This document shows positions 9,163 through 33,890 of a DNA stretch of 64,000 bases, in pieces. The translations under genes were made by a program, and so were the position numbers. This stretch comes from Thiomicrorhabdus sp. (GTDB taxonomy: Bacteria; Pseudomonadota; Gammaproteobacteria; Thiomicrospirales; Thiomicrospiraceae), in assembly GCA_015487495.1 (NCBI GenBank), contig WFPP01000067.1, positions 1-64,000 of the forward strand, in the 5' to 3' direction. Each line of letters starts with the position of its first letter. Position 1 is the first letter of the stretch. The notes under the pieces are model-generated. The model was given only the letters and a program-made list of their open reading frames with translations. It had not been told where the DNA came from and did not search any database.

Positions 9163-10593
9163 ATGGATACGACAGCAAAGCCACAATATGATGATGGCGT
9201 AGTTAAGTATTTAACAGTAGGTGCGGTAGTTTTTCTGGTGATTGGTACTTTGGTTGGTACTTTTGCAGCAGCTCAACTAGCATGGCCTGCGTTAAATTTT
9301 GATATTGCGGAAATTACTTTTGCCAGATTGCGAGTTATTCATACGAATACCGTTATTTTTGCATTTGGTGGTATGACGCTTATGGCAACAGCTTTTTATA
9401 CTGTTCAACGTACGAATGGGGTAAGGTTGTGGAGTAATGGTTTGGCCTGGTGGACAGCAATTTTGTTTACCATTGGGCTTTTGGCAACGGTTACATCAAT
9501 CGGGTTAGGTATTACAACCGGTAAAGAGTACCATGAGCAAGAGTGGCCAATTGCAATTGCGATTGCCGTGGTTTGGACGATGTATACGTTTAACTTTGTC
9601 TTGACCATTGCTTCTCGTAATAAAGAAACGCATTCGCATGTTTATGTGTCAAACTGGTTCTTTATGGGGATGATGATTGCGATTACTTACTTGTATGTGA
9701 TTAACGGACTTGCTGTTCCTGTTTCATGGTTTAACTCTTACCCACTGTTTGGTGGTGTTCAGGGAGCGATGATTCAATGGTGGTGGGGGCATAATGCAGT
9801 AGGCTTCTTCCTGACGGCTGGATTCTTGGCGATTATGTATTATTTTGTGCCTAAACAAGCGCAACGACCTATTTACTCTTATCGCCTGTCGGTTATTCAC
9901 TTCTGGGCATTGATGTTTGGTTATGTCTGGTTGGGTGCTCACCATTTGCAGTATACAGCGCTTCCTGATTGGGCGGGTTCTCTTGGTGCGGTTATTTCTT
10001 TGGCAATGATTATCCCATCTTGGGGTGGTGCGTTAAACGGGATGTTAACGCTATCGGGTGCTTGGGACAGATTGCGTACCGACTACATTTTACGATTCCT
10101 GATTATGTCCTTAGCGTTCTATGCCATGTCGACATTTGAAGGGCCGGTTATGGCGGCGAAGAGTGTTAATGCACTGTCTCACTATACGGACTGGACGGTT
10201 GGCCACGTTCACTCTGGCGCATTAGGTTGGGTTGCCATGGTGTCGATTGGTGCTATTTACCATATGGTGATGAAGCTTTGGAAAACCGAGATGTATTCAA
10301 TGCAACTGATTAATGTTCATTTTTGGTTAGCAACGATTGGTACGGTCTTTTATGTGGTTGCTATGTGGGTTTCAGGGATTATGCAAGGTTTAATGTGGCG
10401 TGCTTATGATGAGTATGGAACGCTTGCTTATACCTTTGCTGAGTCTGTTGCAGCTATGCATCCATATTATGTTATGCGTGCTTTTGGTGGATTTATTTTC
10501 TTCCTTGGTGCGGCGGTTATGTTGTATAACATTGTGATGACAATCCGAACAGCAGAAGCTAGATCAGCCAATAAAGTTGAATCACTTGCTTAA
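9163..10593 (+). CDS. ccoN: Cytochrome c oxidase, cbb3-type, subunit I
   Basis: 12-TM heme-copper oxidase subunit I with WWWGHNAVGFFLTAG, DWTVGHVHSGALGWV; start trimmed to ATG 9163 (MDTTAKPQYDDG) preceded by AAAAGGGG. Confidence 0.97.
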   Translation: MDTTAKPQYDDGVVKYLTVGAVVFLVIGTLVGTFAAAQLAWPALNFDIAEITFARLRVIHTNTVIFAFGGMTLMATAFYTVQRTNGVRLWSNGLAWWTAILFTIGLLATVTSIGLGITTGKEYHEQEWPIAIAIAVVWTMYTFNFVLTIASRNKETHSHVYVSNWFFMGMMIAITYLYVINGLAVPVSWFNSYPLFGGVQGAMIQWWWGHNAVGFFLTAGFLAIMYYFVPKQAQRPIYSYRLSVIHFWALMFGYVWLGAHHLQYTALPDWAGSLGAVISLAMIIPSWGGALNGMLTLSGAWDRLRTDYILRFLIMSLAFYAMSTFEGPVMAAKSVNALSHYTDWTVGHVHSGALGWVAMVSIGAIYHMVMKLWKTEMYSMQLINVHFWLATIGTVFYVVAMWVSGIMQGLMWRAYDEYGTLAYTFAESVAAMHPYYVMRAFGGFIFFLGAAVMLYNIVMTIRTAEARSANKVESLA

Positions 10594-29469: not shown

Positions 29470-31060
29470 ATGAAAAAATTACAGTTAATTACGCCCGTTG
29501 CGATTGCTGTCGCAGCGTTGCTTTCATCAGGGTGCTCTACGACTCAGGAACCGAATCGTTTACAAACAGAGCTTGATGATCGGCAGGCCATGCTTAATTC
29601 TCAAGCAATGACATTGAAGGAAAAAGAAGCAAATTTAAGTCAAAAAGAGATGGATTTAAGCCAAAAAGAAGCCTTTTTAAAGGAGAAAGAACAGAAGGTT
29701 CAAGAGCTGGGAAAAGTGTCTGCAAAACCTGTGCTCCGAACTGTTGCCTCCTAATGCACAGAAAGGAGAGTGTTATGCACGGGTATGGCAACCGGCCAAA
29801 TATAAAACCATTGCAGAAAAAGTGCTGGTTAAGGAAGCGGATGAAAAAATTACCATTTCTCCAGCAAAATATCAGTGGAAAACAAAGACGGTTGAAGTGA
29901 AGGGTCCGACCACTAAACTGGTATCTAAACCCGCTGTTTATGGTACAGAAAAGGTAAAAGTACTGGTTCGTGATGAGCGAACATTATGGCGTGAATCGCG
30001 TTCTAAAAACAGTCCAATTGTATCGGAAGAAGTCATTAAATTTGCAAAAGAGCATTCAACGGATGATATTGCTGGAGCAAAAGCAGGAACGTGTTTCCAT
30101 GAACATCGTAAAGCACCAAAATATAAAACGGTAGAAGAGAAGGTGCTCGTTAGTGAAGCTTATGATGTGGTTGAAACGCTTCCTGCACAATATGAAACGG
30201 TGAATGAAACCGTTGTGGTTCAGGAGGCATCCACTAAAATTGTTGAGGTGCCTGCAACGTACCGAACCGAGACTAAAAAAATCTTGGTTAAGCCAGCGAC
30301 AACGGTATGGAAAAAAGGAACAGGGCCGATTCAGAAAATTGATGCTGCTACGGGTGAAATTATGTGTTTAGTTGATGTACCCGCTGAATATAAAACGGTT
30401 ACGACACGGGTTATTGATAAGCCAGCTTCAACGAAAACGGTTACGATTCCGGCTGTAACCAAAGTTGTTCAAGTTCGCAAGGAGGTTGCACCGGCCAAGG
30501 AAGTTCGTAGAACCATTCCTGCTAAATATAAAGTGATTAAAAAAACAGTTGTTGAATCGGATGGTGAGTTGGTTTGGCATGAAATTCATAACAATACCAT
30601 GAGCACGAAGTCCAGAACAGGTCGCCAAATGTGTTTGGTTCATGAACCTGCTGTGTATAAAACAGTAACTAAGCGTACTGTTATTAAGCCTGCCAGTACT
30701 CAAAAAGTTGACATTCCTGCGGTTTATCAAAAAATGAAAGTGAAAGTGAAAGTATCAGAACCAACTGAAAAACGGATAAAAATTCCTGCGGTTTATAAAA
30801 CGGTTTATCGTCAAGAGTTGGTTGAAGATGGCAGAATGGAGTGGCGTTCAATTTTATGTGAAACGAATATGACACGTTCACGCATTAAGCAAATTCAACA
30901 GGCATTAAAAGCAAAAGGATATAACCCAGGTCCAATTGATGGTATTGTTGGTTCTCAAACAATTAAGGCAATGAATCAATTCCAAAAGGCGAATAATTTG
31001 CCTGTTGATCGCTATTTAAATGTTGAGTCTATTAGAGCATTGGGGGTTTCTGAAAAGTGA
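29470..31060 (+). pseudogene. Apparent frameshifted lipoprotein with coiled coil, tandem repeats and C-terminal peptidoglycan-binding domain (ORFs 29470-29754 and 29744-31060); alternatively recoded in vivo
   Basis: ORF1 supplies signal peptide/lipobox LLSSGC plus coiled coil; ORF2 lacks a signal and SD and begins at a conserved-looking ELLPPNAQKGECYARV in another frame, then YKTVxxxVLVxxA repeats and RIKQIQQALKAKGYNPGPIDGIVGSQTIKAMNQFQKANNLPVD. Confidence 0.75.
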
Positions 31061-31243: not shown

Positions 31244-31444
31244 TTTTGCTACTATGAAATCAAGTTTTGATAGATTTTATTTGTTTTCTATCCTTTACTA
31301 CTGAGGAGTAAAGGAAATTCATTTTTTAACACGATTAAATTTTAGTAGAATATCGGCCTAATTTTTTATTAGTTATGTTTTTGTGTGTGTTGCATAATAC
31401 ATTATTTACGTACTTATACCCACCTAGTTTAAAGAGTGTTTTCC

Positions 31445-33208
31445 ATGAAACAAAAAATTGCCCAAATATTGGCGGATGTTGTTCAACAGTTAAAAGCACA
31501 GAAAATTATTCCTGAGTCGCTTACTCCAAGAGTGAATGTTGAAAATACTCGTGATAAAGCACACGGTGATTTTGCAACCAATTTGGCGATGATGTTGACC
31601 AAAGCAGCTGGTATGCCTCCCAGAGTGTTGGCTGAAAAAATTGTAGCACTGGTTGCAGATGATCCTATTGTGGAGAGAGTCGAAATTGCAGGGCCAGGTT
31701 TTATTAACTTTTTTGTAAAAGATTCGGCTAAGTTTGCAGTGGTGCAAGCAATATTAGAACAGCAAGAGGCGTTTGGCTGTTGTGATGTTGGCCAAGGTCG
31801 TTCTGTATTGGTTGAGTTTGTGTCAGCCAATCCAACGGGTCCTTTACATGTGGGACATGGTCGTGGAGCGGCATATGGGGCAAGTGTGGCTAACTTATTG
31901 GAGATGGCGGGCTTTAAGGTTTCTAAAGAATATTATGTGAATGATGCGGGGCGCCAAATGGATATTTTAGCAACCTCTGTCTGGTTGCGTTATCTTTCAT
32001 TATGTGGCGAAGTGTTTGATTTTCCAAGTAATGGTTATAAGGGTGATTACATTTATGCCATTAGTGAGTCGTTAAAAGTTCAGTTTGGTGATACCTTAAA
32101 GCGTACGGCTTTGGAAGTGTTTGCGGGTGTCTTTCCTGATGAAGCACAAGAAGATGGCGATAAAGAAAAGCATATTGATGACTTGATTGTTAAGGCTAAA
32201 AACTTATTGGGTGCTGTGCATTATGAAGCGGTTTTTAATGCTGCGGTGAACTCTATTTTGTCTGATATTAAAGAGGATTTAAGAGCGTTTGGTGTTACAT
32301 TTGATGAGTGGTTTTCTGAGCGTGCATTAATGGAAACAGGCGTGATTGATGCAGCCATTGAGCGATTACAAGTAGCGGATAAAATTTATGAGAAAGGGGG
32401 GGCTCTCTGGTTTAGGTCAACCGATTATGGTGATGAAAAAGACCGTGTGGTCGTGCGAGAGAATGGGTTGAAAACTTATTTTGCTTCTGATATTGCTTAC
32501 CATTTTAATAAGCTGGAACGGGGGTTTGATTTATTAATTGATATTTGGGGGTCAGATCACCATGGGTATGTTCCTCGTGTAAAAGCCGCGATGAAAGCGA
32601 TGGAGACCAATTCGGATGCACTGGAGGTCTTATTGGTTCAATTTGCCATTCTTTATAAGGGGGGGGAAAAATTAGCGATGTCTACGCGCAGTGGTCAATT
32701 TGTGACCTTGCGTGAACTGCGAGATGAAGTTGGGTGTGATGCGGCGCGTTTTTTCTATGTGCAACGTAAATCAGAACAACATATGGATTTTGATTTGGAT
32801 TTGGCCGTCTCTAAATCAAATGAAAATCCTGTTTATTATATTCAGTATGCACATGCTCGTATTTGTCGTGTATTGAGACAGTCGGAAGAGAGGGGATACG
32901 TTTTTGATTTGCCTTCAGGACTTGCGGCATTAGAGTATTTGGAAAGTGAGCAAGAGGTTCAACTTGTAACGGAGCTGGCAAAATATCCTGAGATTATCGC
33001 CCGTGCAGCATTGGCGTATGAACCGCATCAAATTGCGTATTATTTAAAAGATTTGGCTCACGCATTACATTCTTACTATAATGCCAGTCAATTTATTGTG
33101 GAAGATAATACAATACGTCATGCTCGTTTAACATTGATTTTAGCGGTAAAGCAAGTGCTTAAGAATGGATTATCCGTTTTGGGTGTGTCTGCACCAGAGG
33201 CCATGTAA
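31445..33208 (+). CDS. argS: Arginyl-tRNA synthetase
   Basis: VEFVSANPTGPLHVGHGRGAAYGAS (HIGH motif), IWGSDHHGYVPRVKAAM, LAMSTRSGQFVTL; ATG 31445 preferred over GTG 31436. Confidence 0.97.
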   Translation: MKQKIAQILADVVQQLKAQKIIPESLTPRVNVENTRDKAHGDFATNLAMMLTKAAGMPPRVLAEKIVALVADDPIVERVEIAGPGFINFFVKDSAKFAVVQAILEQQEAFGCCDVGQGRSVLVEFVSANPTGPLHVGHGRGAAYGASVANLLEMAGFKVSKEYYVNDAGRQMDILATSVWLRYLSLCGEVFDFPSNGYKGDYIYAISESLKVQFGDTLKRTALEVFAGVFPDEAQEDGDKEKHIDDLIVKAKNLLGAVHYEAVFNAAVNSILSDIKEDLRAFGVTFDEWFSERALMETGVIDAAIERLQVADKIYEKGGALWFRSTDYGDEKDRVVVRENGLKTYFASDIAYHFNKLERGFDLLIDIWGSDHHGYVPRVKAAMKAMETNSDALEVLLVQFAILYKGGEKLAMSTRSGQFVTLRELRDEVGCDAARFFYVQRKSEQHMDFDLDLAVSKSNENPVYYIQYAHARICRVLRQSEERGYVFDLPSGLAALEYLESEQEVQLVTELAKYPEIIARAALAYEPHQIAYYLKDLAHALHSYYNASQFIVEDNTIRHARLTLILAVKQVLKNGLSVLGVSAPEAM

Positions 33209-33209
33209 A

Positions 33210-33890
33210 GTGGCACGAGATTATCGTCATGGTTATGGTCGTAAACCGTCTTTTCAGCGTAAGTCTCAACAAAGGGCAAATGAACCTGAAAAAAATTTTA
33301 GTTTTTTTATTTTAGGAGTTGGTGCCCTGGTTTCTTTGCTCTTGGTTTCGGGATTTTTTGTGGTGAATCATTTTATTTTGAAAGGGGTTAAATCGTCCGA
33401 GTCTACACCTTCTCAAACCATTTTTAAAACGGCTTCAGAGCTTAAAGAACCAACAGAAGAACTTGATGAACGGAGTTCTGAAATACGGCAACCTGAGCGT
33501 ATTATGGTTAATGAGGTGGTTGTTCCAGAGAGTCAAGATAGGGTTAAACAAGGGGAGGGAGAGGTTTTAACCCAAAACCATTACTCTTTTTATCAAGGAT
33601 TAAGTCAGACAGAAGTGGTGGTCGAAGCAGAGCTGATTTCTGTTGAATTAGCGCAACCTTATTATATTCAAGCAGGCTCATTTGGGTCTGAAAAGGTGGC
33701 GATGCAGGAGAAAAAACGTTTGGAAAAGCATGGGCAAATATTAGATGTTTCGGCCTTAACGAAAGGGAGTCAAACTTATTATCGTTTAAGGGTTGGCCCC
33801 TTTACTGACCGTTTAAAAATGAATAAACGACGAAATGAACTACGTAAGTTGGGAGTGGACACTTTATTGATTAAAGCACCTAAAGGATAG
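33210..33890 (+). CDS. SPOR domain-containing membrane protein
   Basis: VARDYRHGYGRKPSFQ..., one TM, C-terminal YYIQAGSFGSEKVAMQEKKRLEKHG...YYRLRVGPFTD; GTG start at 33210 just after argS. Confidence 0.9.
   Translation: MARDYRHGYGRKPSFQRKSQQRANEPEKNFSFFILGVGALVSLLLVSGFFVVNHFILKGVKSSESTPSQTIFKTASELKEPTEELDERSSEIRQPERIMVNEVVVPESQDRVKQGEGEVLTQNHYSFYQGLSQTEVVVEAELISVELAQPYYIQAGSFGSEKVAMQEKKRLEKHGQILDVSALTKGSQTYYRLRVGPFTDRLKMNKRRNELRKLGVDTLLIKAPKG

Follow-up and report, generated by a model that had tools for sequence, protein, structure and literature searches.

A lipoprotein gene with a peptidoglycan-binding domain is very probably split by a single frame break in a Thiomicrorhabdus draft genome

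The two overlapping open reading frames located at 29470-31060 of the window (the whole 64,000-nucleotide stretch of Thiomicrorhabdus sp. DNA that was analysed) are very probably a single gene, the frame of which was broken by one length change that is not a multiple of three, at approximately 29709-29735. The signal peptide and lipobox lie in the frame of the upstream ORF, while the repeats and the PG_binding_1 domain lie in the +1 frame, which marks this locus as a broken member of its family. A single small insertion or deletion in the linker joining the two parts would have cut the gene in two, and the break would be confined to this genome record.

The 5' piece, ORF1 (29470-29754, plus strand), is listed with 94 amino acids. 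The encoded protein begins with MKKLQLITPVAIAVAALLSSGCSTTQ, a lipoprotein signal peptide with the lipobox LLSSGC, followed by a K/E/Q-rich, coiled-coil-like segment, and the frame terminates at an out-of-frame TAA. Residues 6-98 of the intact orthologue from the congeneric genome G017 align in frame with ORF1 in a tblastn comparison. The 3' piece, ORF2 (29744-31060, plus strand, 438 amino acids, TTG start in the ORF list), is shifted by +1 with respect to ORF1, which it overlaps by 11 nt, so that its TTG lies near the ORF1 stop. The frame of ORF2 is open from 29681, giving an open frame of 459 codons, and reads ELLPPNAQKGECYARV immediately upstream of and across the TTG. This weak start lacks a Shine-Dalgarno (SD) sequence, and ORF2 lacks a signal peptide. 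The C-terminal part of ORF2 contains a PG_binding_1 domain (PF01471; 30875-31012, plus strand, residues 378-423, E = 1.7e-12), which scores 47.8 bits against a curated cut-off of 23. The coordinates of both ORFs, their +1 relation and the opening of the second frame from 29681, as given in a preliminary description of this DNA, agree with the ORF list and the frame reading, and the peptidoglycan-binding domain which it placed in ORF2 corresponds to this PF01471 match.

Intact orthologues of the joined gene are present in three congeneric genomes, G017, G029 and G006, as open frames of 544, 546 and 538 amino acids with 75%, 74% and 68% identity to ORF2, respectively. Each of these frames starts with a lipoprotein signal and continues through [S/A]DLLPP[ND]A. 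In G017 and G029, the junction reads SDLLPPNA[KQ]KGECFAR[VI]W, with the same signal and lipobox upstream. Altogether, all 15 non-redundant homologues that were read are single ORFs, namely the three congeners and 12 others from other gammaproteobacteria, Campylobacteraceae/Sulfurovum, a betaproteobacterium, a Saprospiraceae MAG and an unclassified bacterium. In the distant homologues from other gammaproteobacteria and Campylobacteraceae/Sulfurovum, the signal shares its frame with PPNA or PPDA as well as with G[EQ]C[YF]A. Furthermore, eight matches from a class-wide survey of 321 genomes cross the junction in one open frame (G038, G045, G091, G166, G178, G198, G227 and G307, the first two being already among the 15), and a two-gene arrangement was found in no genome examined.

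The gene neighbourhood points in the same direction. The conserved neighbours argS (arginyl-tRNA synthetase; 31436-33208, plus strand) and a gene for a SPOR-domain protein (33165-33890, plus strand, SPOR E = 1.3e-14) follow the intact orthologue in the same order in loci L044 and L084, and the synteny of the gene, argS, SPOR and GGDEF is alike in the window, G017 and G029. The earlier proposal that the two ORFs were originally one protein is thus borne out by single-ORF homologues and by orthologues at the same locus. Likewise, the junction which the preliminary description had given as typical of one-piece homologues does occur in the intact relatives, as LLPPNA followed by GEC[YF]AR.

The position of the frame change could be narrowed down with the same orthologues. 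When the intact G017 and G029 proteins were compared with the window by tblastn, two collinear matches were obtained in frames +1 and +2, whereby the match in the ORF1 frame stops at 29730 and the match in the ORF2 frame starts at 29729. The homologue comparison suggested in the preliminary description therefore returns single ORFs and a frame switch at about 29729. The ORF2 frame encodes SELLPP at 29735-29752, the counterpart of the congeneric [S/A]DLLPP, which places the frame change upstream of about 29735. Combined with DNA alignments, these matches define an interval at 29709-29735 (plus strand), which corresponds to the variable linker between the coiled coil and [S/A][D/E]LLPPNA. This linker is rich in indels, being gapped in the DNA alignments and differing in length between species, and it holds the short runs GGGAAAA and AAAA. 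An exact-match scan of viral contigs revealed no copy of the junction.

With regard to the cause of the break in this single gene, we favour, with some reserve and on circumstantial support, an assembly or sequencing error over a recent mutation. The draft consists of 132 contigs and is 93.8% complete, and in the 488 kb examined the frame appears broken at a minimum of two further sites. The reciprocal search, in which the ORFs of this draft were compared with its relatives, revealed no breaks in 1.2 Mb of the single-contig genome G003 (167 kb covered) nor in pieces of G029 and G017. Taken together, the other breaks of the draft and the clean reciprocal search therefore tilt the balance towards an assembly error. 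It has also been reported, from 1106 prokaryotic genomes, that unclustered, BLASTp-validated frame transitions are expected to be sequencing errors and not genuine indels (Antonov et al., PMC3711429). Against such an error, the homopolymers in the linker are only short (A4, G3) and not long runs of the slippage type, and the other breaks in the draft are few.

A genuine recent frameshift mutation in this lineage, leaving either a pseudogene or a phase-variable gene, is a less probable explanation that nevertheless deserves serious weight. The gapped alignments indicate that changes in linker length have been tolerated in evolution, and among the same-genus relatives sampled a close orthologue is present only in G006, G017 and G029, a patchy distribution which suggests that loss of the gene is tolerated. 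Against a genuine mutation, ORF2 contains no other lesion and no sign of relaxed constraint: 28 substitutions are unique to it compared with 30 unique to the G017/G029 clade, which indicates no acceleration. The absence of a second lesion and of relaxation therefore implies that the break is either very recent or artefactual. In addition, the linker has neither a long homopolymer nor a short tandem repeat that could drive phase variation, and the further sites in this draft at which a frame appears broken also speak against a genuine mutation.

Two other sites of the same draft deserve a description of their own. On contig C3, a gene for a methyl-accepting chemotaxis protein (chemoreceptor) has lost its frame near 2072 (L106, minus strand) through a tandem duplication that measures about 20 bp and includes ACAGGTATTACGCAGATTA; this duplication is possibly recent or an assembly artefact. 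On contig C2 (L105, minus strand near 9960), an ATPase-like gene, 82% identical to an intact ORF of G029, has an apparent one-base break roughly 40 codons from its start. A further frameshift candidate at 2214-2317 of L105 was rejected, since the match falls in sequence that precedes the ATG of the gene.

Programmed +1 frameshifting of the antizyme or prfB type at TCC-TAA-T (29749-29755, plus strand), which would fuse ORF1 with ORF2 and had been left open in the preliminary description, appears very improbable. The two frames do stand in the correct +1 relation, the ORF1 stop falls inside the open stretch of ORF2, and ORF2 is under purifying constraint, all of which speaks for recoding. However, every homologue read is unbroken, and the frame change is conserved neither in position nor in direction among relatives. 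The proposed slip site follows from the codons CCT CCT AAT (Pro-Pro-Asn) of the true frame, because the conserved protein sequence (Pro-Asn) itself yields an off-frame TAA; the same off-frame TAA from CCT AAT is also found inside the intact loci L003 and L038. Moreover, according to the alignment, the switch precedes TCC-TAA-T by about 20 nt, and slippage at TCC would give RTVAS in place of the conserved SELLPP, dropping LLPP. Nearly all bacterial prfB sites carry an SD-like AGGGGG together with a CTTT run (PMC12421855). No SD-like element is found in the sequence upstream of the putative slip site, TGCTCCGAACTGTTGCC, and the CTTT run is absent before the stop, where the sequence is GCC TCC TAA T. 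The downstream RNA is no more stable than its shuffles (z = 0.19), and TCCTAAT occurs 10 times in the window against 7.9 expected, i.e., at chance level. Recoding at this site was therefore rejected on conservation, position, motif and RNA structure alike, while the indel that the preliminary description had preferred as the simpler explanation is favoured by the intact relatives and the upstream frame switch. A putative lineage-specific +1 slip, or transcriptional slippage in the A-runs of the linker, that would rescue a recent indel and restore the full-length lipoprotein is similarly improbable.

The least credible reading takes the ORFs as two functional genes in their own right, one for a small lipoprotein with a coiled coil and one for a peptidoglycan-binding protein, possibly coupled in translation through the 11-nt overlap. 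In its favour are the overlap and the proximity of the TTG to the ORF1 stop. Against it, the arrangement is seen in no relative, ORF2 is devoid of signal peptide and SD and has a TTG start, and the conserved reading in the ORF2 frame already covers sequence ahead of the TTG (SEL preceding LPPNA).

Returning to the single gene, its intact product would be a lipoprotein of the outer membrane or periplasm, in which a lipid anchor is followed by a coiled coil and a beta-repeat rod, with the peptidoglycan-binding domain at the C-terminus. On domain composition alone, its likely role would be that of a tether or spacer between the outer membrane and the cell wall. The AlphaFold2 model of ORF2 (mean pLDDT 71.7, pTM 0.30) shows regular short-long strand pairs. 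In this low-confidence model, about twelve strand pairs of approximately 23 residues each are arranged as four modules of three, and each module opens with a conserved Cys motif (GECYARV, GTCFHEH, EIMCLV and RQMCLV). The repeats noticed in the preliminary description are thus present, but their number is about twelve strand pairs instead of "four or so". Given the low global confidence of the model (pTM 0.30), a rod shape of the beta-repeat region is suggested rather than resolved. Among the named models of Pfam and NCBIfam, none reaches its cut-off on the repeat region, PG_binding_1 being the sole exception in the protein, and a literature search by motif returned nothing specific to the repeat family.

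The repeat family itself (window 29744-31060, L032-L043) spans gamma-, beta- and campylobacteria as well as one Saprospiraceae MAG. Other members of the genus (L008-L014) lack a close orthologue and carry a shorter lipoprotein relative of about 390 amino acids, in which the repeats are similar and the N-terminal region is different.

Should the break be genuine, the gene would yield no more than a short, secreted lipoprotein with a coiled coil, and the ORF2 product would not be exported even if the TTG were used, as it has no signal peptide. For annotation, the two ORFs are best entered as a single gene with a disrupted frame, and neither as a pair made up of a small lipoprotein and a cytoplasmic peptidoglycan-binding protein nor as a case of recoding. 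The intact family, combining a lipid anchor, a beta-repeat rod and a cell-wall-binding domain, could deserve a name.

In comparison with known systems, the closest counterparts are the orthologues in the Thiomicrorhabdus MAGs (JAMOLY010000075.1, i.e., contig C75 of G017, and contig C95 of G029), which share the same domain order of lipobox, coiled coil, LLPPNA, Cys-modules of beta repeats and PG_binding_1, but which consist of one continuous ORF of about 540 amino acids with no frame change. With PG_binding_1 (PF01471) proteins in general, the ORF2 protein has the C-terminal domain in common, found above cut-off, while its repeat region is unlike any named Pfam or NCBIfam model. The site of +1 frameshifting in eukaryotic antizyme is TCC-TGA-T, and the TCC codon before the stop and the T after it are shared with the present sequence. 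In contrast to antizyme, which is eukaryotic, the stop here is TAA instead of TGA, the site is not conserved, and the triplets are encoded Pro-Pro-Asn. The programmed +1 frameshift of prfB resembles the present locus in that a stop codon marks the junction of two frames related by +1; the prfB match of this same genome is a 308-aa open frame that aligns from profile position 49 onward and lies near the end of its sequence stretch. Unlike in prfB, the junction described here has neither the SD-like element nor CTTT, carries TAA and not the usual TGA, and lacks conservation in relatives.
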